Source: Marinilabiliales bacterium
GTDB lineage: Bacteria; Bacteroidota; Bacteroidia; Bacteroidales; F082
DNA: 64,000 nucleotides
Assembly: GCA_002869365.1 (NCBI GenBank)
Contig: PKTA01000152.1
Coordinates: 1-64,000, forward strand
Direction: 5' to 3'
The notes beneath the pieces are model-generated. The model saw nothing but the letters and a program-made list of their open reading frames with translations, was not told the DNA's origin and made no database searches. Below, one piece after another: positions 17,512 to 40,731 of this stretch; the stretch's first letter is position 1; the number at the start of each line of letters is the position of its first letter. The position numbers and the translations under genes were made by a program.

Positions 17512-17877
17512 ATGAAAAAAACAGTACATATCATCGATGATGAATTAAGTATCAGAATGTTACTTGAGAATTTTTTAGGAAAAACATATAACGTTAACAC
17601 TTCCAATGATGGCATAGAGGCAATAAAATCGCTTGAAGAAGGCAACATGCCCGACTTAATAGTTGCTGATATTCAGATGCCTAATATGGATGGATATGAA
17701 TTTTTACAAAAAGTTAAGGAAAGTGGATTTTTCAAGCATATTCCTGTAATTATGCTTTCAGGCATTGAGAGTAGTGTTGAAAGGGTTAAATGTTTAAAAT
17801 TGGGAGCAAACGATTATATTGTAAAACCGTTCAACCCAGAAGAATTAGCAATAAGAATAGAAAATCTAATAAGTTAA
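17512..17877 (+). CDS. Single-domain response regulator (CheY-like)
   Basis: A 121-residue stand-alone receiver. All functional residues are present: acidic pair in HIIDDE (D9, D10), phospho-acceptor D53 in VADIQMP, Ser in MLSGIES and K105 in IVKPFNP. It has no output domain, so it must act through a partner or as a phosphate relay. It is the first gene of the polysaccharide locus, 16 bases before the pseudo-receiver/sugar-transferase fusion, and is preceded by a promoter-like element. A natural hypothesis is that it controls polymer synthesis at the protein level rather than transcription. Confidence 0.93.
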   Translation: MKKTVHIIDDELSIRMLLENFLGKTYNVNTSNDGIEAIKSLEEGNMPDLIVADIQMPNMDGYEFLQKVKESGFFKHIPVIMLSGIESSVERVKCLKLGANDYIVKPFNPEELAIRIENLIS

Positions 17878-17893: not shown

Positions 17894-19099
17894 ATGGAGA
17901 ATTCTAATCATTCACCATTACAATTACTATATATTGGAACTAATGAAGGCTTAATTAACGAATTGAGAGACAAAACTGACAAGTTTAACATTACTCAGTT
18001 CGATAATGGACTAAAAGCCCACAAATACCTTAATTCCAATGAAATAATTGATGCAATAATTTGTGAGGTACAGATTGGTGGCATGAATGTATTAGAATAT
18101 GTAACTCTCATAAGAGGAAATCAAAACTTTACAAAAACTCCGATTATTTTAGTAGCGTTTGAAAAAAATAATGAATTCCTGAAAAAAGCACTTGCTGCAA
18201 AAGGAACTATTGATGATTTATACTTCCCTCCAATTAAAACCGATCAATTATACTCCCGGATTCTTTCAATAAAAAAATATTACACTGAAATAATAGACAA
18301 GAAGATTACGAAGAAGGAGAAGTATGAGTATAAAATTCCATTTCTAAAAAGAACTTTCGATATAATTGTCTCATCCATAGTGATTTTACTAATTTCACCT
18401 ATTCTGATAATCGTTGCCCTAGCAATACGTCTTGAATCGAAAGGACCGATAGTTTACAAAAGCAAAAGAGTAGGTACAGGCTACAAAATTTTCGATTTTC
18501 TAAAATTCAGATCGATGTATACTGGTGCAGATGCCAAATTAGCAGAATTGAAGCATCTGAATCAATATTCAAATAATAAAACTGAAAAAGATGAAAACAA
18601 CAATATAGATAATAATTGTCAGGATTGTGCTAAATTACCCGAAGGTCAATACTGTTCACCTCTATTGTATATAAAAGGACAAAAGATTTGTGAGAGTTAT
18701 TATTTTAAGTTGAAGAAGGAAAAAGGAGATTCTGCTTTTATTAAAATCTCTAACGATCCCAGGATAACTAAAGTAGGTAACTTTATTAGAAATACTTCCA
18801 TCGATGAACTACCGCAATTGATAAATGTGCTTAAGGGAGATATGTCGATAGTTGGTAACAGACCTTTACCAATGTACGAAGCGGAGTTATTAACATCCGA
18901 CGACTGGAGTTTACGTTTTATGGGCCCTGCAGGTATAACCGGTTTGTGGCAGGTTGAGTTACGAGGAAAGAAAGGTGTAATGTCGGAAGAGGAAAGGAAA
19001 ATGCTTGATAATCAATACGCTAAGAATTATTCTTTTTGGGGTGATATAAAGTTGATATTACGTACAATACCTGCCTTATTTCAGAAGGATAATGTTTAA
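17894..19099 (+). CDS. Pseudo-receiver/bacterial sugar transferase fusion (initiating phosphoglycosyltransferase)
   Basis: A 401-residue fusion. Residues 9-125 have a receiver fold, but the phospho-acceptor is Glu58 (ICEVQIG), the conserved Lys is Phe111, the Thr/Ser switch is Ala and the acidic pair is lost, so it cannot work as a normal receiver. Residues about 150-400 are a bacterial sugar transferase (PF02397): KRTFDIIVSSIVILLISPIL is the membrane hairpin, then KFRSMYTGADAKL, ITKVGNFIRNTSIDELPQL and SIVGNRPLP. This class loads the first sugar phosphate on undecaprenyl phosphate. An insertion of about 70 residues between these motifs holds C242, C245, C254 and C266. It follows the CheY-like gene. 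Confidence 0.9.
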   Translation: MENSNHSPLQLLYIGTNEGLINELRDKTDKFNITQFDNGLKAHKYLNSNEIIDAIICEVQIGGMNVLEYVTLIRGNQNFTKTPIILVAFEKNNEFLKKALAAKGTIDDLYFPPIKTDQLYSRILSIKKYYTEIIDKKITKKEKYEYKIPFLKRTFDIIVSSIVILLISPILIIVALAIRLESKGPIVYKSKRVGTGYKIFDFLKFRSMYTGADAKLAELKHLNQYSNNKTEKDENNNIDNNCQDCAKLPEGQYCSPLLYIKGQKICESYYFKLKKEKGDSAFIKISNDPRITKVGNFIRNTSIDELPQLINVLKGDMSIVGNRPLPMYEAELLTSDDWSLRFMGPAGITGLWQVELRGKKGVMSEEERKMLDNQYAKNYSFWGDIKLILRTIPALFQKDNV

Positions 19100-19206
19100 A
19101 ATTTATGTGTTAAAAAATTATTAATAAAATATTGAGTATCACAGTTTATTATAAGTTATATATTAGTAGTTTGGACAATTATTTAATTAGAAGACAGACC
19201 AAAAAA

Positions 19207-19989
19207 ATGATTAAATCAGCATCAGGAACCATATTAACCAACACAATGTTGCTAATTATTATACTGTTTACTAGTGTGAATTTGTTTGGTCAGATAGCGA
19301 ATACTGGCAGAGACCAATTATTCAACCCTCTTACAGATGATATTACCGAAAGGCTTCCTGCTCTAAATGTGCTTATCGATTCTGCAGCACATAACTCTCC
19401 AGATATGCTTTATGAAGAATTAAAGGCTGATTACTACAGATATGAACAAATTTCTGCAGCGAATGAATGGCTTGATATGTTAAGTTGGAATGTAGATTTA
19501 AACTTTGGAAAATGGGATTATTGGGACTATCAGGAACAAACAAAAGATCCTTATTTCTATAACAGCCAATCATGGAGAACTAATTTTGCTTTTGCTTTTT
19601 ATGTTAGAATGCCACTAAGAGTTTTTATTGACAGAAGAAACAGAATAAATAAGCAAAAGAAATGGATCGAGATATCATTAACTCAAAAGGAAATAAATCG
19701 AAGGTTTTTAGCTGACCGGGTAATAACTATATATAATGATTTAGTTAATTATCAAAATCAAATCAGAATATATAATGAATATCAGGGCTTTACAATGTCG
19801 CAAATGCAAATGGCAAAAAATGAATTTCTAAATGGAGAAATAACAACGGCCGAATATACAAGGCTCAAAGAGATTCAAATTAGGGGCTCTATTGACTATA
19901 CTAAGGTTATTGCAGAATTCAAGAAAAATTATGATGCCCTGGAGATTATTACAGGAATGCACTTTAATCTGATTACGATAATAAGATAA
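19207..19989 (+). CDS. Short TolC-like outer-membrane protein
   Basis: A 260-residue exported protein. The frame opens at a TTG (19132), but the ATG at 19207 directly precedes a signal peptide (TMLLIIILFTSVNLFGQ). The mature part begins LPALNVLIDSAAHNSPDMLY, the typical entry of the outer membrane efflux family; a strand-like region (SWNVDLNFGKWDYWDY) and long helices follow, including QMQMAKNEFLNGEITTAEYTRLK. Only about one of the two repeats of a full TolC (about 430 residues) is present. Its place between the initiating transferase and the co-polymerase suggests an outer-membrane part of polymer export. Function is inferred. Confidence 0.7.
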   Translation: MIKSASGTILTNTMLLIIILFTSVNLFGQIANTGRDQLFNPLTDDITERLPALNVLIDSAAHNSPDMLYEELKADYYRYEQISAANEWLDMLSWNVDLNFGKWDYWDYQEQTKDPYFYNSQSWRTNFAFAFYVRMPLRVFIDRRNRINKQKKWIEISLTQKEINRRFLADRVITIYNDLVNYQNQIRIYNEYQGFTMSQMQMAKNEFLNGEITTAEYTRLKEIQIRGSIDYTKVIAEFKKNYDALEIITGMHFNLITIIR

Positions 19990-19995
19990 GATAAT

Positions 19996-22953
19996 ATGGA
20001 TATTGGTCAGTTTATAAAACTATTTAAACGCAACTTGGTAATACTAATAGCCATTCCACTATTACTGGCAGCTGTTGTATATGTTTTTACCAGAAATCAA
20101 ACTCTGATATATGAATCAGAAGTATTGATATATACTGGTATTACAACAGGATATTCCATTGAATCGGAAACACAACAAACAACCAACTTCTTTACTACCA
20201 GTGCACAGTTCGATAACATTATAGCAATGTTAAATTCGAGACAAACCATTGTTTCAACCTCAATATGGCTTCTTGCTCAGGATTTATCACTCGATCAATA
20301 TAATAATCAATACATTTCTCAGGATCATTTTAATAAACTACAATCATTTATACCAAAAAGAGTTAAAGATTTAGTTGTTAAACACAATAAGTCAGGAATT
20401 GAAAGAGAAAAAGAGGAGCAAATAAAAAATCTGGAAAAGGAAATTACATCTCTCGAGAGAGAAATTACCAAAAAGAAAAATATAGCAGCTCAAAATAAAA
20501 CACGACAAGATGGCTATGTTGATCCTGCTTATGAATCAGCAGCTGGTGTTGGTAAACAAGAACCAGTTACAGAAAATAATAATGATAATTATATCTTTCA
20601 TGAGGTTCAGCAGGGAGAATCAATATCAGAATTAGCTAGCAGGTACGGAGTTTCCAGAGGTCAGTTAATGCAAATGAACAATTTGACTTCCGATGATCTT
20701 TCTAGTGGGCAATCGCTGATGATTAAGAAAAATACTCCTTCCACAATAACATCAAAATATCACACGGTTAAAAGAGGTGAAACACTATACTCCATAGCAA
20801 AGAGATATGGCATAAATATCAGTAAGTTAAGAGAACTTAATAATTTGAACAACAGAGCATTAAGTCCGGGACAAAAAATAATTATTGAACAAGGATATAA
20901 TACAAGTTCTGATGGTGATAATACATATGATTATGCTGTTAAACAAGTTTCTCCGGATGTTGTTATTTCTACAACACCTCCTGTTTTAAACAATGTTGAT
21001 AAAAATGATGAAAATTATACAGGAAATAAAGTAGTTACAGCATTTGGAGAAGGAAAAGGAATATTCTCAAAAGATCCAATTACTCCACCTGGCGTTAGCC
21101 CTGAAGATTTTCAAAAAACCTTTAATAATTTATTATCTTTTTATAGTGCTAATGACAGTAATTTTATATATGGATTATTACATTATGGACAACACCCGCA
21201 CTATAGTATAGCAAAGATATCTGAACTTCAGGTATATAGGGAGAAGAATAGTGACATGGTGAAGATTATCTATTCTGCAGATGACCCTGGTATTTGCCAG
21301 CAAACACTTAAAATAATTTCGAAAGTATTTATGAAAAATTATAAAATGCTTCGCGAAAATGAAACTAATTTAGTTATCAAATATTTTGAAGAACAGGTTA
21401 CATTGGCAGATAAAAAATTACAGGAAGCTGAAGATCGACTGCTTAAATTCAACATGAAAAATAATATTATTAACTATTACGAACAAAGTAAATATATTGC
21501 TTCGCAAAAGGAAGATTTGGACTTATATTATCAAAATGAGCAAGTTAGAATGGCATCTTCTTCATCTGCATTAAGGGAACTTGAAACCAATTTAACAGCC
21601 CGAGATAGTATATATCTGAAGAGTGACGGAATAAACCAAATGAGAAAGGAATTGGCCGAAATTTCCGAAGCCATAGTTATAAATGAATTATCTGAAAGTT
21701 ATGACGAAAGGACAAAAAATAAGATAAACTCTTTAAGATTACGACAAAAGGAGTTGAAAGATAATATCAAATTATATGTTGATCAACTATATTTATATAG
21801 TCATTCAACACAAGGTATGCCAATTAAAACTCTTCTCGAAAGCTGGTTAACAAATACGCTTAGTTATGAAGAAGCGAAGGCAGCATTAGTTGTTCTGGCA
21901 AGGCGTAAAATGGACTTTGTAAGGACATACCAAAAGTTTGCCCCTCTGGGAGCTATGTTAAAGCGTATTGAACGTGAGATTAAAGTTGCAGAACAATCCT
22001 ACCTGGAATTATTGAAAAGTTTAAATGCTGCAAAAATGAAACAACAACGCCTTGATATGTCTACTAATATCAAAGTTGTGGATCCCGCCTTTTTCCCAAT
22101 TTCTCCAAAAGCTTCAAAAACTAAAATTTTAATTGCTGCAGCATTTCTATTTGGATTACTACTTGTAGCATTTACTATTTTAATTCTCGAATATTTTGAC
22201 TCCTCTGTTAAAAGTCCAAATAAAGTAAAATACGAAACAAAACTTCAACTTGCGGGAGCTTATCCGCGCATAGGTTCAAAAGCACAAGCCAATGAACTTG
22301 CTATGATTACCAATCGACTGATTGACATGATCATACAAAATATTAAACTTGGTTTTACTAAAGAAAAACCAGAAGATAATAAACCAAAAATAATACTCCT
22401 CATTTCAACTCAGGATAAAACCGGCAAGACGTTAATAGGTCAGAAAATTGTGAATCGTCTAAGGGATATGGGTCAAAATATACTTTTCGCCAATTATAGT
22501 AAAGTTAACGACACTTCAAAAATTGACGAAGATTATAATTATTCATATACTTATAAAATTGATAGCAATTTTATCGATTTAGAAACAATTCCTCAACTAC
22601 TTGATGGCAAAAATATCCGTAAGGAAAATTATGAGTATGATTATATATTTATTGAATTACCATCAATAGTATATAATAATTATCCGTTGAAGTTAATAAG
22701 CAAAGCAGACAGTATACTTTTTGTGATCTCTGCGGCAAATAGTATACAATCGGCGGATAAGAATGCTTTAGAAACATTTAAGACTTCGTCAAACATAGAA
22801 CCTGTAGTAATTCTTAATGAGGTTGAATTATACAATCTTGAAGACTTACTTACGTCTGTTCCAAAAACAAGACGTCAGGCTGCAATTAAGGGTATTAAAA
22901 ATATTCTTAACTATCCCTTGAAATACAAAATTAAAATTAAAAAAGAGGATTAA
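19996..22953 (+). CDS. Wzz/GNVR polysaccharide co-polymerase with two LysM domains and degenerate tyrosine-kinase-like domain
   Basis: A 985-residue inner-membrane protein. TM1 is at about 12-32 and TM2 at about 709-733 (TKILIAAAFLFGLLLVAFTI), preceded by the Pro-rich PAFFPISPKAS motif of chain-length regulators. The periplasmic loop carries two LysM domains at about 198-245 (HEVQQGESISELASRYGVS) and 255-300 (HTVKRGETLYSIAKRYGIN), then long coiled coils. The cytoplasmic C-terminus has a P-loop (STQDKTGKT, about residue 804), but the Walker B aspartate is Glu (FIELPSI), Walker A' lacks its Asp and no Tyr-rich tail is seen. It probably controls chain length and may bind peptidoglycan. The next gene starts 6 bases later. 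Confidence 0.88.
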   Translation: MDIGQFIKLFKRNLVILIAIPLLLAAVVYVFTRNQTLIYESEVLIYTGITTGYSIESETQQTTNFFTTSAQFDNIIAMLNSRQTIVSTSIWLLAQDLSLDQYNNQYISQDHFNKLQSFIPKRVKDLVVKHNKSGIEREKEEQIKNLEKEITSLEREITKKKNIAAQNKTRQDGYVDPAYESAAGVGKQEPVTENNNDNYIFHEVQQGESISELASRYGVSRGQLMQMNNLTSDDLSSGQSLMIKKNTPSTITSKYHTVKRGETLYSIAKRYGINISKLRELNNLNNRALSPGQKIIIEQGYNTSSDGDNTYDYAVKQVSPDVVISTTPPVLNNVDKNDENYTGNKVVTAFGEGKGIFSKDPITPPGVSPEDFQKTFNNLLSFYSANDSNFIYGLLHYGQHPHYSIAKISELQVYREKNSDMVKIIYSADDPGICQQTLKIISKVFMKNYKMLRENETNLVIKYFEEQVTLADKKLQEAEDRLLKFNMKNNIINYYEQSKYIASQKEDLDLYYQNEQVRMASSSSALRELETNLTARDSIYLKSDGINQMRKELAEISEAIVINELSESYDERTKNKINSLRLRQKELKDNIKLYVDQLYLYSHSTQGMPIKTLLESWLTNTLSYEEAKAALVVLARRKMDFVRTYQKFAPLGAMLKRIEREIKVAEQSYLELLKSLNAAKMKQQRLDMSTNIKVVDPAFFPISPKASKTKILIAAAFLFGLLLVAFTILILEYFDSSVKSPNKVKYETKLQLAGAYPRIGSKAQANELAMITNRLIDMIIQNIKLGFTKEKPEDNKPKIILLISTQDKTGKTLIGQKIVNRLRDMGQNILFANYSKVNDTSKIDEDYNYSYTYKIDSNFIDLETIPQLLDGKNIRKENYEYDYIFIELPSIVYNNYPLKLISKADSILFVISAANSIQSADKNALETFKTSSNIEPVVILNEVELYNLEDLLTSVPKTRRQAAIKGIKNILNYPLKYKIKIKKED

Positions 22954-22958
22954 ATAAG

Positions 22959-24398
22959 GTGGCAAATTTAGCAACTAAAATACTAAAGAATAACAATTTC
23001 CTTTCTTTAGCCAATAATGGTTTGGTTGCTGTCCTTGCTTTTTTTAGTTTTATGATTTTAGTGCGTAGTTTACCTACTGACGATTTCGGTAAATGGGTTC
23101 TGTTTTTAACTACCGCTAACTTTCTCGACATGCTCCGATTTGGAATTACAAGTACGGCAATGGTTCGTTTCTTATCTGGTGCAAATAAAGAAAAAGGTAA
23201 AGAGTTAATTGGCTCTAACTATCTTATAAATTTTGTTAGTTCAATAATTCTCATATCGATTACATTAATAGTAAGTTTCTATTTTAAGGAAACTGTTTCT
23301 GATTCAGGTTTCTCATTGTTTTTTGAATGGTTTCCATTGTTTGCAATAGTTAATCTGCCTTTTAATAATGCCCTATCTGTACTTCAGGCCAGACTCCGTT
23401 TCGACCTTATACTTTTAATAAGAATTATAAATGTAGGGATTTTCATGCTATTTCTTTTGGTAAACTATTTCTTTCTTAAATTAGGTTTATTGGAAATAAC
23501 CTGGGTATTTATCGCTACAGCATTATTTACATCAATAGTAACAATGATTTTCAATTGGGATGGAATTCGATATATATTCCATGCAAAAAATTCTGCCAAC
23601 AAAATAATATTAAATTTCGGAAAGTATACTACAGGTACATTAATTGGAAGTAACCTATTAAAAAGTGCCGACACCTTTATTATTGGTTTGAGTCCATTTT
23701 TGGGAACTACCGCAGTTGCACTATATAGTATTCCTCTAAAGTTAACAGAAATTATTGAAATACCCGTAAGAAGCTATGCTATGACAGCATTTCCAGGAAT
23801 GTCTAAAGCAAGTATTGAAGGGAAAAAGGAAGAAGTAAAACGCTTATATTATCAAAACGCTGGTGGTTTGCTTTATATGTTAATTCCTGTCATGATATTT
23901 TGTTTCATTTTTGCAGAAGAGTTTGTTACTATTCTAGGTGGGGCAGAATACACTCAAACTGCAGGTATTTTTAGAATATTCTGTTTCTATGGCCTTTTGT
24001 TGCCTATTGACAGACTAACTGGTGTAGCACTTGATAGTGTTAATTTACCAAAACAAAATTTTATTAAAGTAATCTATATGACCTCAGCAAATATCATTGG
24101 TGACGGTATTATGGTATTTGGAATTTATTATTTAGTTTTGTTAATATCGGGAATTACTCTGTTATTCTCTGGTATTGATAATATTGATACTTTGATAGCA
24201 CTTATAGCAAATTACACAAATATTACAATACTTGAATTAGTAGCTGTAGTAACACTTTTATTTTCAATAATAGGTATATTAGTGGGGTTCAACTACTTAA
24301 ATAAAGAACTTGACTTAAAATTCAGAAATATTTTCACAGGAGGTATTTCGTTTTTTAGCGTATTTATTAATAAAGTATTAGCAAGAAAAAATATTTAA
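22959..24398 (+). CDS. Wzx-like oligosaccharide flippase, GTG start
   Basis: A 479-residue protein with about 12-14 membrane helices, of the MATE/MVF/PST superfamily that flips lipid-linked repeat units to the periplasm. The N-terminus (FLSLANNGLVAVLAFFSFMILVRSLPTDDFGKWV, given here only as a landmark region at residues 14-47) has the family's conserved first-helix pattern ending in a DFG-like turn. The start is GTG at 22959-22961, 5 bases after the previous stop; no ATG is available near it. It follows the co-polymerase and precedes the polymerase, the usual Wzx/Wzy order. Confidence 0.88.
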   Translation: MANLATKILKNNNFLSLANNGLVAVLAFFSFMILVRSLPTDDFGKWVLFLTTANFLDMLRFGITSTAMVRFLSGANKEKGKELIGSNYLINFVSSIILISITLIVSFYFKETVSDSGFSLFFEWFPLFAIVNLPFNNALSVLQARLRFDLILLIRIINVGIFMLFLLVNYFFLKLGLLEITWVFIATALFTSIVTMIFNWDGIRYIFHAKNSANKIILNFGKYTTGTLIGSNLLKSADTFIIGLSPFLGTTAVALYSIPLKLTEIIEIPVRSYAMTAFPGMSKASIEGKKEEVKRLYYQNAGGLLYMLIPVMIFCFIFAEEFVTILGGAEYTQTAGIFRIFCFYGLLLPIDRLTGVALDSVNLPKQNFIKVIYMTSANIIGDGIMVFGIYYLVLLISGITLLFSGIDNIDTLIALIANYTNITILELVAVVTLLFSIIGILVGFNYLNKELDLKFRNIFTGGISFFSVFINKVLARKNI

Positions 24399-24433: not shown

Positions 24434-25927
24434 ATGCTTGAATCATTAAAGCGAAAACGTGGTGCACACAAACTAGAACATCCTTTAGTTATTGCCATAT
24501 TGTTTATGGTGGCAGTAGTTGCAGGAGTTTTAATTGCAAAAGGTGGCGTTAAAATTGCTGTAATGATTGTAGCTATGCTACCTGTTCTGTTTTTCCTTAA
24601 CAGAGTGTTTAATAACCCACCGGTTGGGATTTATACACTTTTAGTTTTTGCATTTATTGCCATTGGATTAACTCGCTATATTCAGAATGTTCCTTTGGGA
24701 CTAACAATAGATGGCTTTTTAGTGTTAACGATATTAGGTTTTTTCTTTAAATATTTCAATATTAAAATAGATTTCCAACAAATAAACCGAGATATTGTTT
24801 ACCTATTATTCTTTTGGTTCATATACATAGTAATGGAACTAGGTAATCCACAGGCATTAAGCCGTACAGCCTGGTTTTATGCAATGCGAGGAGTGGCTCT
24901 TTATCCACTTCTACTAATACCTATTGCTTTTTTTACTTTTAACCGACTTCGTTATGTGATGGGGTTCCTGTATTTATGGGGGGTATTTACAATATTAGCT
25001 ACCATTGTTGGTTTAAAACAACAATATATAGGACTTGATTACGCTGAACAATTTTGGATAGATACTATAGGAGGAGTTACTCACATAATCCTTGGAAAAT
25101 TAAGAATATTTTCATTTTTCTCTGATGCCGGTCAGTTTGGTGCAGCCCAGGCCGCAGCAGGGGTTGTTGGAATTCTTGTTGCCTCAACTATTAAAGGTTT
25201 AAGGAATAAAATTTTCTTCATTATCATGGGAATTATGGGTATTTGGGGAATGTTCCTGTCGGGTACTCGTGGTGCAATGATTGTGCCTATGATTGGAGGA
25301 GTAGTTTATATTATTCTTCGGAAAAATCTTAAAGTAATACTAGTAGGTGGTTTTTTAATGACTGTAATATATGTGTTTTTCGCTCATACTTATATAGGAG
25401 AAAGTAACTATAACATAGCCAGGATGCGTACAGCATTCCGGCCATCAAATGATGCTTCTTACCAGGTTAGGTTGGAGAATCGCGCAATTCTAAAAGATTA
25501 TCTTGCAAACAAACCTATTGGAGGAGGTGTAGGAAGTGCAGGAAACTGGGGACAAAGATTTTCTCCACAAGGCTTTCTTGCTAATGTTGCCACTGATAGT
25601 TGGTATGTACAAATTTGGGCAGAAACTGGAATTATAGGTTTACTTATACATGTATTCATACTTACTTATATTATTGTGAAAGGTTTTTATCTGATTTTGT
25701 TTAGAATTAGAAATCCTGAATTAGCTGGAATATTAGGGGCCTTACATGCTGGTTTTGCCGGAATTATGGGGGCGAGTTATGGCAATGGTGTACTTGGACA
25801 AATACCTACCGGACCTATAGTTTATTTAAGTTGGGCTTTTGTATTTATGGCGCTCCAATTCGACAGAGAATACGATTATCTTAAAGAGAAAGATATTACC
25901 CCAACCTCATTATTCACCAAAACTTAA
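24434..25927 (+). CDS. Wzy-like O-antigen polymerase/ligase family protein
   Basis: A 497-residue polytopic membrane protein with about 11-12 helices. The region LSGTRGAMIVPMIGGVVYII is the conserved R-containing helix end of O-antigen ligase/polymerase proteins, and GGGVGSAGNWGQRFSP followed by ATDSWYVQIWAETGIIGLL is the periplasmic loop with the HxxxxxxxxE-like boundary seen in this superfamily. It is expected to polymerise flipped repeat units in the periplasm. A WaaL-type ligase role cannot be excluded from sequence, but the position next to Wzx and Wzz favours Wzy. Confidence 0.88.
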   Translation: MLESLKRKRGAHKLEHPLVIAILFMVAVVAGVLIAKGGVKIAVMIVAMLPVLFFLNRVFNNPPVGIYTLLVFAFIAIGLTRYIQNVPLGLTIDGFLVLTILGFFFKYFNIKIDFQQINRDIVYLLFFWFIYIVMELGNPQALSRTAWFYAMRGVALYPLLLIPIAFFTFNRLRYVMGFLYLWGVFTILATIVGLKQQYIGLDYAEQFWIDTIGGVTHIILGKLRIFSFFSDAGQFGAAQAAAGVVGILVASTIKGLRNKIFFIIMGIMGIWGMFLSGTRGAMIVPMIGGVVYIILRKNLKVILVGGFLMTVIYVFFAHTYIGESNYNIARMRTAFRPSNDASYQVRLENRAILKDYLANKPIGGGVGSAGNWGQRFSPQGFLANVATDSWYVQIWAETGIIGLLIHVFILTYIIVKGFYLILFRIRNPELAGILGALHAGFAGIMGASYGNGVLGQIPTGPIVYLSWAFVFMALQFDREYDYLKEKDITPTSLFTKT

Positions 25928-25937
25928 ATATATTGTC

Positions 25938-26873
25938 ATGGAGAAAAAATCAAATAACTTGCCTTTAGTATCTGTTGTTACAGTTAACTACAATCAAACA
26001 AAGGTAACAGCAGAATTTCTAACCTCCATGAGTAAAATCACTTATCCTAATACAGAGATATTCGTTGTTGATAATGCCTCCCCTATTGATGATTCTGATA
26101 GTTTAAAAGCTGAATTCCCTGATATAAATTTATTAAAAAGTGATAAAAACCTTGGATTTGCAGGTGGAAACAATCTTGCTTTACCCCACTGCAAAGGGAA
26201 ATATGTATTATTTATTAATAATGATACAGAAGTTGAAAAAGATTTTCTCGAACCATTAGTTGAAGTTTTGGAAAACGATCTAACTATCGGGATGGTAAGC
26301 CCAAAAATCCAGTACTTTCATACAAAAGACACTTTGCAATTTGCCGGTTTCACAAGGTTCAATATGCTGACAATCAGAAATTTTGCCATTGGATATGGAG
26401 AAGTTGATAAAGGGCAATATGATGTAACATGTGAAACAGGTTCTATTTTTGGCGCAGCAATGCTTATACCAATGAAAGTAATTGAGAAAGTTGGAATGAT
26501 GACAGAAATATTTTTCCTGTATTACGAGGAACATGACTGGGCAGCACATATAGAAAAAGCAGGATATAAAATATACTATCAGGGAAAATCTTTGGTATTA
26601 CACAAAGAGTCGATATCTACAGTAAAAGATAGCCCTTTTCAAATCTATTATTTAAATAGAGGACGAATTTTGTTCGCCAGAAGAAATACAAAAGGGTTTT
26701 ACCGATTCTTAACTTTAGTATATTTATACTTTGTTTCAGGACCAAGAATAAGCATCGGGTTCATTTCAAGAGGTCGTTTCGATTTATTTTTTGCTTATTG
26801 GAAGTCCGTTTGGTGGAATATTACTCACCGAAAAAACATCATCTTTGGATTACCAAAACTAAAAAGAGTATAA
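25938..26873 (+). CDS. GT2 glycosyltransferase, rhamnosyltransferase-like (copy A1)
   Basis: A 311-residue GT-A glycosyltransferase. It begins LPLVSVVTVNYNQTKVTAEF and shows VVDNASPIDDSD, LGFAGGNNLAL and the DxD-like NNDTEV, a set typical of the WcaE/RfbN-like GT2 group; LYYEEHDWAAHIEKAGYKIY holds the ED-W acceptor motif. The frame extends upstream into the polymerase gene, but the ATG at 25938, 10 bases after the polymerase stop, gives the normal N-terminus. It is closely similar to the gene at 28109 (both contain FGAAMLIPM/HGAAMIVPM and FLYYEE), forming half of a duplicated two-gene unit. Confidence 0.92.
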   Translation: MEKKSNNLPLVSVVTVNYNQTKVTAEFLTSMSKITYPNTEIFVVDNASPIDDSDSLKAEFPDINLLKSDKNLGFAGGNNLALPHCKGKYVLFINNDTEVEKDFLEPLVEVLENDLTIGMVSPKIQYFHTKDTLQFAGFTRFNMLTIRNFAIGYGEVDKGQYDVTCETGSIFGAAMLIPMKVIEKVGMMTEIFFLYYEEHDWAAHIEKAGYKIYYQGKSLVLHKESISTVKDSPFQIYYLNRGRILFARRNTKGFYRFLTLVYLYFVSGPRISIGFISRGRFDLFFAYWKSVWWNITHRKNIIFGLPKLKRV

Positions 26874-26874
26874 A

Positions 26875-28098
26875 ATGGGTATAGTTAAACTTATTGTCAA
26901 TATTGCTGAAATTGCTATTTATGTTTATTTCAGTTTTGCTACTCTGTATATTTTAATCTATTCAATCTTCGGTTTATTTTATAAAAACAGAAAAGACGTA
27001 AAAGTTAGTAAGCATAGAAAATTTGCTGTATTAATTCCAGGATATAAAGAAGATGCAGTTATTGTAAGCGTTGCTGAACAGGCAGTTAAACAGGATTATC
27101 CAAATGATAAATATGAAGTTATTGTAATTGCAGATTCTTTCACGCAAAGCACTCTGGATAAATTAAAACAACTGCCAATTAGATTGGAAGTTGTTGAATT
27201 TGAGGTAAGTAAAAAATCGAAAGCCCTTAATTTATGTATGGATAGAATTGGTGATGATTATGATATAGCAATGATACTCGATGCCGATAACGTAATGAAG
27301 CCTGATGTGCTCACCAAAATGAATATGGCTTTCGAAAGAGGATTTACTGCTGTTCAAGGGCACCGAACAGCGAAAAATCTAAATGCAAACTTTGCCATAT
27401 TGGATGCTATGAGTGAAGAGATAAATAATCATATTTTTAGAAAAGGTCACAGAGTATTAGGATTATCTTCAGCATTAATTGGTTCAGGAATGGCTTTAGA
27501 CTACCATCTGTTCAAATCCACTATGGCTACGGTTGACTCTGTTGGTGAAGACAAGGAAGTTGAATTAAAAATAATTAGAAACCGACATAAAATTGAATAT
27601 ATTCACAACGCCCTAATTTTTGATGAAAAAACTTCAAAATCAGATGTTTTTGTTAATCAAAGAAGAAGATGGATCGCTGCACAATTAGATTATTTTAGAA
27701 GTAATTTCTTCGATGGTGTATGGCAGTTAGTAACAAAAGCTAATGTTGATTATTTCGACAAAGTTCTACAAATGATAATGCCTCCGCGTATTATCCTTGC
27801 CGGAGTATTATTCCTAGCATCACTAATTTCATTGATATTCAACTTTTTATCAATAAATTCGATTAGCAAGATTTTCTATAGCGATTATCAAATGTGGAGT
27901 TTATTATTTGGGCTAACAGCATTTTCCCTTTTTATTTCAATTCCACGTAAATTCTATAACAAACAAACATTTATTGCTCTTTTAAGGATACCGCATGGCT
28001 TTATATTAATGATAATAAGTTTGCTCAGAATAAAAGGAGCTAGCAAAAAATTTCTTCATACAACTCATGATCATGTTGAAGATTCAAAACATAATTAA
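26875..28098 (+). CDS. Membrane GT2 glycosyltransferase (copy B1)
   Basis: A 407-residue processive-type GT2. One N-terminal helix (about 5-33) and two or more C-terminal helices (about 300-395) flank the GT-A domain. Motifs are AVLIPGYKEDAVIVSVAEQ, MILDADNVMKPD, VQGHRTAKN and the QRRRWIAAQ motif (Q-x-x-R-W) of cellulose-synthase-like enzymes. It starts 1 base after copy A1 ends. Its paralogue at 29046 shares EEINNHIFRKGHRVLGLSSA exactly. The sugar is unknown. Confidence 0.9.
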   Translation: MGIVKLIVNIAEIAIYVYFSFATLYILIYSIFGLFYKNRKDVKVSKHRKFAVLIPGYKEDAVIVSVAEQAVKQDYPNDKYEVIVIADSFTQSTLDKLKQLPIRLEVVEFEVSKKSKALNLCMDRIGDDYDIAMILDADNVMKPDVLTKMNMAFERGFTAVQGHRTAKNLNANFAILDAMSEEINNHIFRKGHRVLGLSSALIGSGMALDYHLFKSTMATVDSVGEDKEVELKIIRNRHKIEYIHNALIFDEKTSKSDVFVNQRRRWIAAQLDYFRSNFFDGVWQLVTKANVDYFDKVLQMIMPPRIILAGVLFLASLISLIFNFLSINSISKIFYSDYQMWSLLFGLTAFSLFISIPRKFYNKQTFIALLRIPHGFILMIISLLRIKGASKKFLHTTHDHVEDSKHN

Positions 28099-28108
28099 AT
28101 AATTGATT

Positions 28109-29035
28109 ATGCCTCCGGTAAATAAATTCCCATTAGTTTCAATAGTTTCTGTTAATTTTAATCAGGCTGATGTTACTTGTGCTTTACTGGAATCATTGAA
28201 TAAAATTACATATCCAAATATTGAAGTAATAATTATTGATAATAACTCCACTGAGGATGACCCATCTGTTATAAAACAAAAATATCCAAACATCATTTTT
28301 ATTGAAAATCCAATAAATTATGGATTTGCCGCAGGAAATAATTTTGGGCTAATGCGTGCCCGCGGTGAATATGTGATGTTATTAAATAATGATGTTGAAG
28401 TACCACCAGGCTTTCTCGAACCTCTAGTAAATAAACTTGAAAAGAATAAGGATATAGGTGCTGCCAGTCCGCTAATTAAATTTTATTACCAACCCGACAC
28501 TATACAGTATGCCGGGTATACCCCAATTAATCCTATCACAATGAGAAATGCCTCTATCGGTTATTGGGAGAAGGATCGCGGTCAGTATAAAGAAGATCGG
28601 GAAACAGCATATTCTCATGGTGCAGCAATGATAGTACCTATGAGGGTTATAAAAGAAATAGGATTAATGTCTTATATTTTTTTCCTCTATTACGAGGAAG
28701 CCGACTGGTGTGCCAGAATTAAAAAAGCAGGATATAAAAACTATTATGTTGGAAGTACTTTTGTCTACCACAAAGAATCGGTTTCCACAGGAAGAATAAG
28801 TGCATTGAAAATTTACTATCAAAACAGAAATCGTATTGTTTTTATGAGAAGAAATATTGAAGGCAAAGACTTTTATTTGGGAATTATGTACCAGTTATTC
28901 ATAGCAATTCCGAAAAATGCATTTAAATTCCTTTTAAAAGCCAAATTCAAATTGTTCTTTGCTTATTACAAGGCAATTGGATGGAATTTGAAAAATATTT
29001 TTTCACCGGAAATTCATGAGAATCCAATGTTGTAA
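28109..29035 (+). CDS. GT2 glycosyltransferase, rhamnosyltransferase-like (copy A2)
   Basis: A 308-residue GT2 starting MPPVNKFPLVSIVSVNFNQ. A TTG lies two codons upstream in the same frame, but the ATG at 28109 is preferred. Motifs parallel copy A1: IIDNNSTEDD, YGFAAGNNFGLM, NNDVEVPPGF and FLYYEEADWCARIKKAGY. The overall length and the C-terminal FKLFFAYYKAIGWNLKN match A1's ending FDLFFAYWKSVWWNITH, so the two come from a duplication and may add different sugars of one repeat unit. The next gene overlaps or directly follows its end. Confidence 0.92.
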   Translation: MPPVNKFPLVSIVSVNFNQADVTCALLESLNKITYPNIEVIIIDNNSTEDDPSVIKQKYPNIIFIENPINYGFAAGNNFGLMRARGEYVMLLNNDVEVPPGFLEPLVNKLEKNKDIGAASPLIKFYYQPDTIQYAGYTPINPITMRNASIGYWEKDRGQYKEDRETAYSHGAAMIVPMRVIKEIGLMSYIFFLYYEEADWCARIKKAGYKNYYVGSTFVYHKESVSTGRISALKIYYQNRNRIVFMRRNIEGKDFYLGIMYQLFIAIPKNAFKFLLKAKFKLFFAYYKAIGWNLKNIFSPEIHENPML

Positions 29036-29045
29036 AACTAAATAT

Positions 29046-30251
29046 ATGATTATGAACTACTTAATTTATTTAAATTATATTATTTATGTAATCATAAGTT
29101 TCTCAACATTATACATTTTTGTATTTGCAGTTGCCGGACTTTTTAATTTCAGGCAGAAAAAACCAAAGGATGATTTGCAGAGAAAATTTGCAATTCTTAT
29201 TCCTGGCTATAAAGAGGATAGTGTTGTTGTAGAAGTAGCTAAAGAGGCACTCAAACAGGATTATCCCAAACACCTCTTCGATATAATTATTATAGCTGAC
29301 GGATTTCATCAACAAACTATCGAAAAACTTAGTGTTCTTGATTTAATATTAATAGAAGTTGAATTAGAATTTAGCACAAAATCGCGCGCATTAAACGCTG
29401 CTTTACGATCACTAGATAAAAAGTATGATATAGCTATAATACTTGATGCAGATAATTTAATGGAAAAAGATTTCCTTAAAAAAGTAAATACTTCATTTGC
29501 AGCAGGAAATAAAGTTGTACAAGGCCATAGAGTTGCAAAAAATATGGATACTTCCTACGCAATACTCGATGCTGCAAGTGAGGAAATAAATAATCATATT
29601 TTCAGAAAAGGTCATAGAGTATTAGGATTATCCTCAGCATTAATAGGTTCTGCCATGGCTTTTGATTATGAATATTTCTACAATATGATGAAAAAAGTTG
29701 AAGTTGTGGGAGGTTTCGACAAAGAAATAGAAATATTAACACTTGAAAAGAAAATTAAAATAGAATATCTTCCAAATGCTTTTGTCTACGATGAAAAAGT
29801 ACCTAATGCGAAAGTATTCTCAACACAGAGAAGAAGATGGCTTTCGGCACAAATACATTTTTTTGGAAAGAGTTTCATTCCTGCAACTAGAGATTTATTT
29901 TTAAAAGGAAATTTTGATTTGTTTAACAAAGCAATACAATTTATACTGATACCCAGAATTCTACTGCTTGGAATATTATTCTTATCGAGTATATTTTCTC
30001 TATTTTTTGCCACAACTATTATTACTATTCAGTGGTTGTTATTACTCACTCTATGTATATTAACATTTATTATTTCTACTCCATTGTATATGTATAATAT
30101 GAAAACAGTTGTGGCCTTATTGAAAATACCTTCTGGTTTTTACCATATGTTTATATCTTTACTTAAAATTAAAGGAGCAAATAAAAAGTTTATTAATACT
30201 AAACATACATATAATGCATTTCAAAAAAAGTCAAAGAAAAAAGTTAACTAG
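29046..30251 (+). CDS. Membrane GT2 glycosyltransferase (copy B2)
   Basis: A 401-residue membrane GT2, paralogue of copy B1. It shows AILIPGYKEDSVVVEVAKE, IILDADNLMEKD, VQGHRVAKN and QRRRWLSAQ. Its N-terminal helix begins NYLIYLNYIIYVIISFSTLY and the C-terminal helices end in KIKGANKKFINTKH, like KGASKKFLHTTH in B1. Three in-frame ATGs are possible (29016, overlapping the previous gene by 20 bases; 29046; 29052); the later ones fit the paralogue's N-terminus. After it there is a 190-base AT-rich gap before the next gene, the largest break inside the glycosyltransferase block. Confidence 0.88.
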   Translation: MIMNYLIYLNYIIYVIISFSTLYIFVFAVAGLFNFRQKKPKDDLQRKFAILIPGYKEDSVVVEVAKEALKQDYPKHLFDIIIIADGFHQQTIEKLSVLDLILIEVELEFSTKSRALNAALRSLDKKYDIAIILDADNLMEKDFLKKVNTSFAAGNKVVQGHRVAKNMDTSYAILDAASEEINNHIFRKGHRVLGLSSALIGSAMAFDYEYFYNMMKKVEVVGGFDKEIEILTLEKKIKIEYLPNAFVYDEKVPNAKVFSTQRRRWLSAQIHFFGKSFIPATRDLFLKGNFDLFNKAIQFILIPRILLLGILFLSSIFSLFFATTIITIQWLLLLTLCILTFIISTPLYMYNMKTVVALLKIPSGFYHMFISLLKIKGANKKFINTKHTYNAFQKKSKKKVN

Positions 30252-30442
30252 AATTGAATTTACATCATTTTAGAAATTACAATCATTATTTCTCAATTAT
30301 TTACTTAAACATATTAAGTATTAATGATTATTTTTTCTTAACATTAAGGAATAAATTATGTAAATTAGTTTTTTTAATATTTCGAAATATTAAATTGTGA
30401 ATTTAAAACTATAATCAAAGATTTTATAAATATAACTTACAA

Positions 30443-31597
30443 ATGAAAATAGCAATTGAAGGCCAGAGGCTTTTCCGCACAAAAAAACATGGTATGGACA
30501 TGGTTGCTCTGGAGTTAATAAACGAACTGCAGAAGTTGGATCATGAAAATGAATATGTTGTATTTGTAAAGCCGGATGAAGATACAGCAACACTTAAGGA
30601 AACAGCAAACTTTAAAATTGTTCAACTTGGTGGAGGCCCCTACCCTACATGGGAACAATTTGCACTACCTAAGGCTGCAAAAAAAGAAGGTTGCGATATA
30701 TTGCATTGTACCAGTAATACAGCTCCTGTAAACCCTGGTATGCCATTAATTGTTACTCTTCACGATATCATATACCTTGAAGGAATTAGTATTTTTAAAA
30801 AGGGAGGAACCTGGTATCAAAAATTTGGGAATATGTACCGCAGATATGTAGTTCCTGCTGTTGTTAAAAAAAGTGATAAGATAATTACTGTATCAAAATT
30901 TGAAAGAAACAGGATTAAAGACTTCTTTGGTTTTCCCGACACTGACAATCGTTTAGTTGCAGTGTATAATGGTGTAAGTGAACACTTTAAACCTGTTAAG
31001 GATAAGGAAGAATTAGATAGAGTAAAGAATAAATATAATCTTCCCGAAAGGTTCTTTTTCTTCCTAGGAAACACCGACCCCAAAAAAAACACTCCTGGTA
31101 CCTTAAAAGCATTTAGTGAATATTTGAAGAAAACAGGTGAGGATGTATATTTAGTAATGCTTGATTATGAAAAACAAGAACTTACAAAAATTTTGAGTTC
31201 GATAGGAGATCCGGGATTAATTGACAAAATTTTATTAACAGGATATGTGGTTAATACTGACTTGCCCTCCATTTATAACCTTTGTGAGATATTTTTATAT
31301 CCCTCTCTTAGAGAGAGTTTTGGAATCCCAATGCTTGAAGCAATGCGCTGTGGGGCACCGGTAATTACCTCAAACACCTCTTCTATGCCTGAGGTAAGCG
31401 GGAATGCTGCATATATTGTTGACCCTCATAAACCGGAGGAAATTACAAAGGCTATAATTGAAATTCAAAACGATAAAAACCTAAGGTCCGAGTTAATTGC
31501 TAAAGGACTAAAACAAGCTGAAAAATTCTCATGGAAAAATATGGCTAAAGAAGTTTTAGAACTCTATAAAGAGGTATATAATAATAATAAAAACTAA
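30443..31597 (+). CDS. Glycosyltransferase family 4
   Basis: A 384-residue GT-B enzyme. The N-terminal part has AIEGQRLFRTKKHGMDMVAL, an acceptor-side opening common in mannosyl-/rhamnosyltransferases of the WbaZ/MtfB type, and HDIIYLEG with GIS. The C-terminal donor site contains YPSLRESFGIPMLEAMRCG with the full E-x7-E motif, followed by SNTSSMPEVSGNAA. This is a retaining, soluble or peripheral enzyme that adds a sugar to the growing repeat unit. It opens a second run of plus-strand genes after a short gap; the next gene starts 5 bases after its stop. Confidence 0.93.
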   Translation: MKIAIEGQRLFRTKKHGMDMVALELINELQKLDHENEYVVFVKPDEDTATLKETANFKIVQLGGGPYPTWEQFALPKAAKKEGCDILHCTSNTAPVNPGMPLIVTLHDIIYLEGISIFKKGGTWYQKFGNMYRRYVVPAVVKKSDKIITVSKFERNRIKDFFGFPDTDNRLVAVYNGVSEHFKPVKDKEELDRVKNKYNLPERFFFFLGNTDPKKNTPGTLKAFSEYLKKTGEDVYLVMLDYEKQELTKILSSIGDPGLIDKILLTGYVVNTDLPSIYNLCEIFLYPSLRESFGIPMLEAMRCGAPVITSNTSSMPEVSGNAAYIVDPHKPEEITKAIIEIQNDKNLRSELIAKGLKQAEKFSWKNMAKEVLELYKEVYNNNKN

Positions 31598-31602
31598 TCA
31601 TT

Positions 31603-32808
31603 ATGATCAAAGGAAGGGATATAATAGTTTACGGTCTTCAGGCATGGGATTTTAATATCGCTAGTACTTGCAAGTATACCGCCATTGAAATGGCTAAAAA
31701 TAATAGAGTCCTATATGTAAACCCTCCAATGCAAAGAAGTTCTGCACTTTTCCAAAAAAACGATCCTGCGATTAAAAAGCGTTTAAGAATTAACAAAGGA
31801 TTAGAACCTGATTTAGTACAAGAGGATAATAACTTATGGGTTCTTTATCCTAGAACAGTAGTTGAATCAATAAATTGGATTAAATCGCCTGCAATATTTA
31901 ATTTTTTCAATAAGATTAATGATAAAAGATATGCCCGCGAAGTTAAAAAGAACATTGAAAAACTTAATTTCAAAAACTATATTCTTTTTAATGATAACTC
32001 AATGATTACCGGGTTCTATTTTAAGGAAATGCTCAAACCTACAGTTTTTGTATATCTCCTTCGCGATGCTGTTATTCTTGTCGATTATCATAAACGTCAC
32101 GGTAGCCGACTTCAACCTCTTATTATTGAAAAAGCTGATGTAGCAGTTGCAAATTCTGATTTCTTTGCCGACTATTGTCGTCAGACAAATCCAAACTCTC
32201 ACATGATCGGACAGGGTTGTGACTTAACATTATATAATGATGAGGATGGCACTTTATCAGTACCAGATGATTTAGCGTCAATAAAAAAGCCAATAATAGG
32301 GTATGTCGGTTTCCTTACAAGCATTCGACTTGATATTGATGTTCTCGTTCATATAGCTGAACAACGACCAGAATGGAGTCTTGTTTTGGTTGGACCTGAA
32401 GATGAAGATTTTGAAAACTCTAAACTTCATAACCTCAGCAATGCATATTTCCTTGGAAGAAAAAACCCTGAGGAACTTGCTGCTTATATAAAGGGCTTTG
32501 ATGTCGCATTAAACCCACAGAAAGTTAATGATATTACAGATATCAACTATCCACTGAAAATTGATGAATATCTGGCAATGGGTAAACCAACAGTTGCAAC
32601 AAAAACAACTTTCATGGAGTATTTCAAAGATCATACTTATCTTCCGGTAACCAAAGAAGATTATATAACTGAAATTGAAAAAGCGTTGAAAGAGGACAGC
32701 CCTGAACTTCAAAAAGACAGAATCGCTTGTGCAGGAGAACATACATGGGAAAACTTCGTAAATAAGATTTATAAATATATAGAAGAAATCGAATTAACAA
32801 TTAAATAA
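31603..32808 (+). CDS. Glycosyltransferase, TuaH-like GT-B (tandem copy 1)
   Basis: A 401-residue protein beginning GRDIIVYGLQAWDFNIASTC. The body fits GT-B glycosyltransferases of the TuaH/GT1-like group: RVLYVNPPMQRS, then YLLRDAVIL, NSDFFADY, the linker IGYVGFLTSIRLDIDVLVHI and a donor site NYPLKIDEYLAMGKPTVAT. It is followed after 2 bases by a close paralogue. Both share VLVGPEDE and the same arrangement along the full length. Assignment to a glycosyltransferase is firm; sugar and linkage are unknown. Confidence 0.87.
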   Translation: MIKGRDIIVYGLQAWDFNIASTCKYTAIEMAKNNRVLYVNPPMQRSSALFQKNDPAIKKRLRINKGLEPDLVQEDNNLWVLYPRTVVESINWIKSPAIFNFFNKINDKRYAREVKKNIEKLNFKNYILFNDNSMITGFYFKEMLKPTVFVYLLRDAVILVDYHKRHGSRLQPLIIEKADVAVANSDFFADYCRQTNPNSHMIGQGCDLTLYNDEDGTLSVPDDLASIKKPIIGYVGFLTSIRLDIDVLVHIAEQRPEWSLVLVGPEDEDFENSKLHNLSNAYFLGRKNPEELAAYIKGFDVALNPQKVNDITDINYPLKIDEYLAMGKPTVATKTTFMEYFKDHTYLPVTKEDYITEIEKALKEDSPELQKDRIACAGEHTWENFVNKIYKYIEEIELTIK

Positions 32809-32810
32809 TA

Positions 32811-34001
32811 ATGATTTCCGGAAGAGATATAATAGTGCATGGACTTCAGTCGCTCGATTCTACAATTGGAAGTAATTGTGTAAATATTGCAAATGAGTTT
32901 GCCAAGTCTAATAGAGTTCTATATGTAAACTACCCAATTGACAGAATTACTTCACTTAGATCTGGTAATAATCCTTTAGTTAAAAAACGTAAGGAGATAC
33001 TCTCAGGCAAACAACCTGATTTAGTAAATGTTACAGAAACGATGTGGAACCTTAATCCTAGAACTACTCTAGAGTCCATTAGTAAAATTAACTATCGTCC
33101 GTTATTTAATTTTTTAAATAAGATTAATAATAAACGTTATGCAAAAGAAATTCAAAAAGCGATAGACAAACTTGATTTTAAAGACTATATCATATTTAAT
33201 GACAGTGATTTCTATAGAGGCTTATACTTTAAAGAATTATTGAATCCAGCCATGTGTATTTATTACACTCGTGATAATATGCGTGCTACAGATTTTTTTA
33301 AGAAAAATGGAGGATACTATGAAGATAAATTAATGGCAAAATCTGATTTGGTAGTTTCAAATTCTGTATACCTAAACGATATAGCAAAAGCAAGTAACCC
33401 CAACTCGGTATATGTTGGACAAGGATGTGATGTCAGTCTTTTCAATAAAGATCTCATAAAGGATATTCCTGAAGATATTGGTAAAATTAATAAACCAGTC
33501 ATCGGATATATAGGAGCCTTAAAAAGTTCCAGACTTGATATTGAAGTTCTAGAATATATTGCCATTAGCAAACCTGAATGGAGTGTTGTACTTGTGGGCC
33601 CTGAAGATGAAAAATTTAAAGCAAGTAAGTTGCACAATATGAGTAATGTATATTTTCTTGGCTCAAAAAAAGAAACAGAATTACCAAGGTACTTAAATTC
33701 ATTTGATGTTGCTTTGAATCCACAATTATTGAATGAACTTACTATCGGCAATTATCCTCGCAAAATAGATGAGTATCTTGCAATGGGGAAGCCTGTTGTT
33801 GCTACTCTAACAAGGGCTATGGAAGTATTTAAGGAATATACTTATCTTGCAAAGGATAAAGAAGGGTATGTTGAACTAATATCAGAAGCACTTGAAAACA
33901 ATTCAACCGAGAAATCAACTTCAAGAATTAATTTCGCTCGAAAGCATACATGGGAAAATAATGTAAAGGCAATTTATAAATCTATCTCTGAAACTAAATA
34001 A
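32811..34001 (+). CDS. Glycosyltransferase, TuaH-like GT-B (tandem copy 2)
   Basis: A 396-residue paralogue of the preceding gene, with GRDIIVHGLQSLDSTIGSNC at the start, RVLYVNYPIDR, YYTRDNMRATD, IGYIGALKSSRLDIEVLEYI and NYPRKIDEYLAMGKPVVAT. The two copies have clearly diverged but keep the same length and motif order, so the duplication is old and both are probably active. It starts 2 bases after copy 1 and ends 2 bases before the acyltransferase gene, so translation of the three is likely coupled. Confidence 0.87.
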   Translation: MISGRDIIVHGLQSLDSTIGSNCVNIANEFAKSNRVLYVNYPIDRITSLRSGNNPLVKKRKEILSGKQPDLVNVTETMWNLNPRTTLESISKINYRPLFNFLNKINNKRYAKEIQKAIDKLDFKDYIIFNDSDFYRGLYFKELLNPAMCIYYTRDNMRATDFFKKNGGYYEDKLMAKSDLVVSNSVYLNDIAKASNPNSVYVGQGCDVSLFNKDLIKDIPEDIGKINKPVIGYIGALKSSRLDIEVLEYIAISKPEWSVVLVGPEDEKFKASKLHNMSNVYFLGSKKETELPRYLNSFDVALNPQLLNELTIGNYPRKIDEYLAMGKPVVATLTRAMEVFKEYTYLAKDKEGYVELISEALENNSTEKSTSRINFARKHTWENNVKAIYKSISETK

Positions 34002-34003
34002 CT

Positions 34004-34624
34004 ATGGGATTAAAAGAAAAAATAAAATCTAATCCTAAATTGCAAAAGTTAGCTATTTGGGCACTATCTCCAAAAAATCAGGCAAGACCACGATTGTGGG
34101 TTAGAATGTTTGTAAATCCCATACTAAATAAACGTGGAAAGGGTTCAATAATTCGGCGCAGAGTAAGGATGGATATTTTTCCTTATAATAAGTTCAGTCT
34201 AGGTAAATATTCCACGATTGAAGATTTTTCAACAGTTAATAATGGAGTTGGCGATGTTTTTATAGGAGATAGAACAAGACTTGGAATGAGTAATGTAATA
34301 ATCGGCCCTATTAAAATAGGAAACGATATAATGTTTGCGCAAAATATTGTTTGTTCAGGTTTAAATCATATATACGAAGATATAAATACTCCCATTGCAG
34401 ATCAGAATGTAACCACCAACCTTATTACAATTGAAGACGAAGTTTGGATTGGTGCAAATGCTGTTATAACTGCAGGAGTAACTGTTGGTAAGCACTCTGT
34501 TGTTGCTGCAGGTTGTGTTGTTGTAAAGGACGTCCCTCCGTATTCAATTGTTGGAGGTAATCCGGGCAAAATACTTAAAACATATAATCCCGACAGTAAA
34601 CAGTGGGAACGTACAGTTAAATAA
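34004..34624 (+). CDS. Left-handed beta-helix acyltransferase (hexapeptide transferase)
   Basis: A 206-residue acyltransferase, probably O-acetylating or N-acylating a sugar of the polymer. The hexapeptide repeats run from about residue 65 to 190 (VFIGDRTRLGMSNVIIGPIK, then ITIEDEVWIGANAVITAGVT and VGKHSVVAAGCVVVKDVPPY). The loop CSGLNHIYED holds the conserved catalytic His, and IVGGNPGKILKTY is the usual C-terminal seal. The N-terminal 60 residues are basic and helical, as in WcaF/VatD-like proteins. It lies inside the glycosyltransferase operon. Confidence 0.92.
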   Translation: MGLKEKIKSNPKLQKLAIWALSPKNQARPRLWVRMFVNPILNKRGKGSIIRRRVRMDIFPYNKFSLGKYSTIEDFSTVNNGVGDVFIGDRTRLGMSNVIIGPIKIGNDIMFAQNIVCSGLNHIYEDINTPIADQNVTTNLITIEDEVWIGANAVITAGVTVGKHSVVAAGCVVVKDVPPYSIVGGNPGKILKTYNPDSKQWERTVK

Positions 34625-34684
34625 CATTGTTAATTATAAGCAAGTAACTATGAATAAAAGCTTTATAACTAATAAAACAATCGC

Positions 34685-35476: not shown

Positions 35477-35482
35477 TTGTAT

Positions 35483-40543: not shown

Positions 40544-40731
40544 TCGTTTTACATTTGTTCATCAATTTACCTGGATTCTTAAATTAAAACTTATTTTCCC
40601 AAAATGGAACAAAAAATATAAGAGCAATATATGGATAAAATTAATAATCAATAATTTATGATGAAAATAATAAACGGCATATATATTGAATAAAAACTAG
40701 AAGTACTATTGAAAATTAATTAAATGAAATT

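Follow-up and report, generated by a model that had tools for sequence, protein, structure and literature searches.

The window, a stretch of 64,000 nucleotides from a Marinilabiliales bacterium, contains a Wzx/Wzy polysaccharide cluster, the genes and protein features of which are given in Table 1. The gene for a Wzc-type polysaccharide co-polymerase (PCP) is preceded by genes for a response regulator, an initiating transferase and a half-size TolC-like protein (half-TolC), and is followed by those for Wzx and Wzy. This order is kept across dozens of loci, comprising nearly all of those not cut by a contig end, and its conservation makes it very likely that the genes form a functional unit. 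Unlike the E. coli Wzc system, the PCP module includes neither a Wza-type exporter nor Wzb.

Table 1. Genes of the polysaccharide cluster and features of the co-polymerase (positions in the window)
Feature	Position	Strand	Evidence
Single-domain response regulator, phospho-acceptor D53 and K105 conserved	17512..17877	+	PF00072 1.9e-28
Initiating phosphoglycosyl transferase, N-terminal pseudo-receiver domain	17894..19099	+	PF02397 1e-57; PF00072 7e-7, just below cut-off
Half-size TolC-like outer-membrane protein, one OEP repeat, likely start 19207	19132..19989	+	PF02321 single repeat; model
PCP (Wzc-type polysaccharide co-polymerase), 985 aa, LysM cassette and pseudokinase P-loop domain	19996..22953	+	
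PCP TM helix 1, residues ~14-32	20035..20091	+	AlphaFold helix, hydrophobic
PCP helix of 37 residues (134-170) ahead of LysM cassette	20395..20505	+	AlphaFold2 model
PCP LysM 1, residues ~201-243	20599..20724	+	PF01476 E=2.7e-11 per genome; predicted fold
PCP LysM 2, residues ~255-297	20761..20886	+	PF01476 E=7.8e-18 per genome; copy retained in nearly all relatives
PCP disordered linker, residues 301-357, ~20% mean identity	20896..21066	+	Alignment and AlphaFold2 model
PCP periplasmic long-helix region, residues 431-689	21286..22062	+	AlphaFold2 model
PCP TM helix 2, residues ~709-733	22120..22194	+	AlphaFold2 model
PCP cytoplasmic P-loop (BY-pseudokinase) domain, residues 798-945	22387..22830	+	Fold match and motifs
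PCP Walker A S-T-Q-D-K-T-G-K-T, residues 804-812	22405..22431	+	GK invariant
PCP Glu887 at Walker B Asp position	22654..22656	+	Alignment of LysM-bearing relatives
Wzx-type flippase	22959..24398	+	PF01943 5e-10
Wzy-type polymerase	24434..25927	+	PF04932 5.7e-13
Glycosyltransferases, hexapeptide transferase and FkbM methyltransferase of the cluster	25839..36676	+	
Hybrid histidine kinase-response regulator and second single response regulator, 3' end of cluster	39146..41157	+	

Some variation was observed around the module. In two loci (L155 and L159) the response regulator and transferase pair is doubled in tandem upstream of the half-TolC gene, and genes of ~370 and ~676 codons lie upstream in relatives. 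The window's genome has a second Wzz-type gene (L161; G000:C176, contig positions 26141–27559), with two Wzz stretches in a 724-codon frame and the look of a tandem fusion; the part read contains no P-loop domain. In the window itself, a gene a short way upstream of the cluster (14878–15717) encodes a protein ending in a SPOR domain, which is also of a peptidoglycan-binding type, and a right-handed β-helix protein with a weak match to a Por secretion tail, possibly a secreted polysaccharide-modifying enzyme, is encoded within it (36673–38316).

The initial annotation of PCP as a Wzz/Wzc-type protein with two LysM domains between its transmembrane (TM) segments is borne out by Pfam, by an AlphaFold2 model and by structural comparison. 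The LysM family (PF01476) matches with E=1.4e-29 (102 bits versus a cut-off of 20.9), and the two matches are far above chance. Both LysMs sit between the two TM helices and adopt a β-α-α-β fold in the predicted model, in which the pLDDT of the LysM block is mostly 73–85 and the linkers are disordered. The model as a whole has a mean pLDDT of 76 and a pTM of 0.44, because of which its domain arrangement is unreliable. It superimposes on the Wzc structure 7ni2 over 381 residues (Z 17.8, rmsd 3.4), and in structural comparison it comes closest to E. coli Wzc and to the kinase domains of CapAB, Wzc and Etk (Z 17–18). The GNVR match lies just above the Pfam cut-off (28.3 versus 27.7), and the N-terminal Wzz model (PF02706), which matches 29 of 51 PCP relatives at E≤0.01, lies below it in the window's protein (12.2 versus 25.5 bits); given the fold and the GNVR match, this score is not decisive against membership of the PCP-2/Wzc class. 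As in that class, a large periplasmic domain of long helices with a GNVR segment is flanked by two TM helices, and the gene is encoded together with Wzx and Wzy. PCP is a variant of the Wzc-type co-polymerases: it resembles E. coli Wzc in the fold of its membrane/periplasmic part, in its P-loop domain and in its gene context, but differs in having a LysM cassette in the slot of the jelly-roll, a glutamate in Walker B, and neither a Walker A' aspartate nor a tyrosine tail. A chance or frameshift origin of the reading frame is ruled out, as the frame and its domains are the same in close relatives of 82–83% identity.

LysM is present in one or two copies in 50 of the 51 proteins of our working alignment; a one-off insertion is thereby ruled out. 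The genome collection yielded 271 PCP relatives, almost all from metagenome-assembled genomes of Bacteroidales/Bacteroidota, with a few otherwise labelled; 80 of the 271 were kept. The search patterns were placed in the PCP core, outside LysM, and ranking was by the whole protein; a whole-protein search matched 143 of 149 relatives at some level, with many of the matches being to other LysM proteins. Full-length relatives are spread over many genera of the family and also occur in several further families of the order, and nearly all of the complete ones among the 80 have one or two LysMs at a single site. LysM2 is occupied in 98% of alignment rows with a mean identity of 59%, similar to the core (59–65%), and its V258, E262, N282 and G292 are invariant (50/50 relatives), whereas the flanking linkers (20%) drift, which implies that LysM is under selection. 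Elsewhere in the phylum, an even sample of 395 genomes (the window's own included) contained 27 with a co-polymerase of this class, and among these only the window's own has LysM.

On a tree of the co-polymerase core, at least four changes in LysM presence and at least eight in LysM number are required; this tree is a quick one with long branches, and the counts are slightly inflated by one row scored as having no LysM (L072), which reflects truncation at a contig end and not a loss. The tree is consistent with a gain of LysM inside the Bacteroidales followed by repeated loss of the first copy. No description of LysM with Wzz, Wzc or a co-polymerase was found in the open-licence literature, an absence that is itself weak evidence, and the pairing of a LysM-bearing PCP with half-TolC was likewise not found in the literature searched. 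The LysM-bearing PCP architecture is thus real and conserved across the lineage, and it is apparently undescribed.

The nearest solved LysM proteins to those of PCP are wall hydrolases, e.g. LytE, and the best NCBIfam match is to murein transglycosylase D (9.4e-22). Tandem LysMs of similar sequence are found in the MltD-type lytic transglycosylases and LytE-type hydrolases; however, these are wall enzymes, whereas the LysMs of PCP are inserted in an inner-membrane co-polymerase. In the same genome, LysM also occurs in proteins that, as read from their sequences, are an MltD-like transglycosylase and a glucosaminidase-like enzyme. The resemblance of the PCP LysMs to those of wall hydrolases leads us to favor a role in anchoring, and binding of peptidoglycan by a predicted LysM ring is plausible. 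The variable number of LysMs, one or two, is a point against this reading, and anchoring to the wall is not required by the machine, since relatives with the same half-TolC are LysM-free.

LysM domains generally recognize GlcNAc polymers. The ligand might instead be the exported polysaccharide itself, with LysM replacing the Wzc jelly-roll as the receptor for GlcNAc-containing repeat units, or for the nascent polymer, at the inner membrane; its role would then lie in loading the chain or controlling its length, not in wall anchoring. A MAFFT alignment including E. coli Wzc and intermediates equates PCP residues 1–124 with Wzc 18–137 and PCP 381–419 with Wzc 178–217, such that the LysM cassette would map approximately between Wzc ~138 and ~178, within the jelly-roll (112–204). 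This mapping rests on the alignment with intermediates and is approximate, because hhalign of the PCP profile against Wzc reached the C-terminal part alone (probability 48%). The isolated Wzc jelly-roll binds GlcNAc/Gal-rich glycans and its deletion nearly abolishes capsule (PMC12881504). The coincidence of the LysM slot with this glycan-binding domain makes binding of polymer or repeat units a serious alternative, and the placement of the LysMs in the model, on flexible linkers from a membrane-proximal base, would suit it. Contrary to this proposal, LysM-free relatives elsewhere in the phylum, which use the same pathway, have little or no insert at the cassette site, implying that a receptor is not generally needed there, and the best sequence neighbors of the PCP LysMs are peptidoglycan hydrolases. 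On balance we consider a glycan receptor, the chief competitor of the anchoring proposal, somewhat unlikely.

The loss of kinase motifs in the cytoplasmic domain described in the initial annotation is confirmed by motif alignment, with the register checked against MinD-type proteins. Walker A is intact (S804-x5-GKT812) and is the sole motif of an active BY-kinase that is kept: the Walker A' aspartate positions are occupied by N833 and S835, both aspartates thus being gone, E887 replaces the Walker B aspartate, and there is no tyrosine cluster in the last 20 residues. PCP thus combines a BY-kinase fold with the lack of catalytic residues and tyrosine tail seen in BY-pseudokinases. The term "degenerate" would imply decay, but the altered motif is strictly conserved among LysM-bearing relatives (GK 75/75, E887 75/75, N833 73/75); judged from the alignment, the P-loop domain is a maintained, conserved pseudokinase that is not decaying. 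No relative with LysM together with intact Walker A' and Walker B motifs and a tyrosine tail, the case named at the outset as one that would contradict the proposal, was found. A tie between LysM and kinase loss is, however, not supported: LysM-free relatives across the phylum mostly share the altered P-loop (Glu in 26/32) and have no tyrosine tail. LysM gain as the cause of kinase decay is accordingly ruled out, and kinase loss most likely preceded the gain of LysM. No BY-kinase above cut-off was found in the recovered genome; two sub-threshold matches were rejected, as one of them looks, from sequence reading, like a ParA gene with ParB as its neighbor and the other like an Mrp-type ATPase.

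The premise that typical Wzz/Wzc proteins do not show such a loss was too strong, as PCP systems with BY-pseudokinases have already been described, i.e. EcpK/EpsV of M. xanthus and HfsA/HfsB of Caulobacter (PMC12004946). Like PCP, these are phosphotyrosine-independent and have a BY-pseudokinase with a C-terminal helix lacking a tyrosine cluster. In contrast, their pseudokinase is a separate protein and they have no LysM, and EcpK has lost its Walker residues, while in PCP the domain is fused and Walker A is kept. Whichever reading of LysM applies, the P-loop domain could also be an active ATPase instead of a scaffold, and drive or gate export; Glu887 would then substitute functionally for the Walker B aspartate. 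The conservation of GK, Glu and Asn833 among LysM-bearing relatives would be unusual in a dead domain, and EcpK is, by contrast, without conserved Walker motifs (PMC12004946); nevertheless, both Walker A' aspartates are gone and retention of Walker A can serve binding alone, and we regard an active ATPase as unlikely.

The neighboring half-TolC is predicted to comprise one helix, one β-hairpin and two long helices (mean pLDDT 86), equivalent to one TolC repeat. The model matches half of TolC/OprM with Z ~9, a score little higher than those of unrelated helical proteins; the Pfam match (PF02321) supports the OEP assignment independently of the model. Half-TolC differs from TolC/OprM in having one OEP repeat per chain (260 aa; a single match in the 291-codon frame) where they have two, as do nearly all other OEP genes of the window's genome. 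Its gene adjoins that of PCP in nearly all relatives, mostly with a length of 240–300 residues. Plasmids of Hymenobacter and Aureispira have a TolC-family gene at the same place, beside a co-polymerase annotated as hypothetical; a search of the plasmids with the OEP protein gave no match at E≤1e-3 despite these genes, indicating that half-TolC sequences are highly divergent. We hypothesize export through a half-TolC oligomer; as each chain would contribute two strands, six copies would build a barrel of 12 strands and eight copies one of 16. The recovered genome of the window, 88.8% complete, yielded no Poly_export (Wza) gene, and such a gene is present at some place in the genome of 133 of 149 relatives; for these two reasons an unlinked Wza may serve export instead. 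The module also differs from that of M. xanthus, where exopolysaccharide exits by a short OPX protein and a β-barrel.

The stand-alone response regulator of the module retains its phosphorylation residues in nearly all relatives (D53 102/104, K105 104/104). In the receiver domain of the transferase, on the other hand, the phosphosite is a glutamate in 90 of 108 rows; the acidic pair and lysine are mostly missing. In M. xanthus a single-domain regulator, EpsW, directly activates the initiating transferase EpsZ (PMC12802240). The PCP module is similar with respect to its single-domain response regulator and monotopic initiating phosphoglycosyl transferase, but its transferase itself bears a pseudo-receiver domain, with which the regulator may interact. 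By analogy, we infer that control in the PCP pathway may be exerted at chain initiation. Both steps of control have experimental precedents: EcpK for pseudokinase PCPs, and EpsW/EpsZ for an initiating transferase under a response regulator.

Starting from the architecture, conservation, synteny and predicted folds described above, we infer the following tentative scheme. PCP would serve as the co-polymerase in a pathway of the Wzx/Wzy type for exopolysaccharide or capsule, oligomerize around Wzy as Wzc does, and meet a half-TolC outer-membrane channel in place of Wza, through which the polymer may leave. It would be controlled without tyrosine phosphorylation, its pseudokinase domain probably still binding nucleotide and acting as a scaffold or switch for oligomerization, and control of chain initiation would be shifted to a two-component system by docking of the response regulator on the transferase pseudo-receiver. 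Pairs of LysMs, tethered flexibly to the membrane-proximal base, would form a ring, with 16 LysMs if PCP is octameric, that may bind the glycan strands of peptidoglycan and keep the conduit in place at its passage through the wall. This combination of a phosphotyrosine-independent PCP, a LysM ring holding the conduit in peptidoglycan, half-TolC export and regulator-controlled initiation is the explanation we favor, with a likelihood that we place slightly short of even.

Septal or wall targeting via LysM is a known role in other proteins. A tag that targets the export machine to sites of septal or newly made peptidoglycan, with no mechanical anchoring, would fit the tandem LysMs of variable number as a means of avidity tuning, but no divisome gene was recognized in the module and we consider it very improbable.

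How capsule conduits are held in, or pass, the peptidoglycan layer is not settled, and peptidoglycan is not mentioned in the Wza-Wzc structure paper. The LysM arrangement suggests an export machine that is either tied to the cell wall or reads the sugar chain, and a PCP with built-in LysMs offers a directly testable handle on the conduit-wall question, with the LysM-free relatives as a natural control. The pseudokinase, conserved and with Walker A intact, makes it possible to study how the cycle of a co-polymerase runs in the absence of phosphotyrosine, and the neighboring half-TolC hints at a route across the outer membrane that differs from Wza. More broadly, it is possible, if doubtful, that the Bacteroidota have a distinct Wzx/Wzy export route, in which a phosphotyrosine-free PCP fused to a nucleotide-binding pseudokinase would work with a half-TolC channel replacing Wza and with response-regulator control via a pseudo-receiver transferase, and in which, in the Bacteroidales, a LysM ring would fix the conduit in peptidoglycan.
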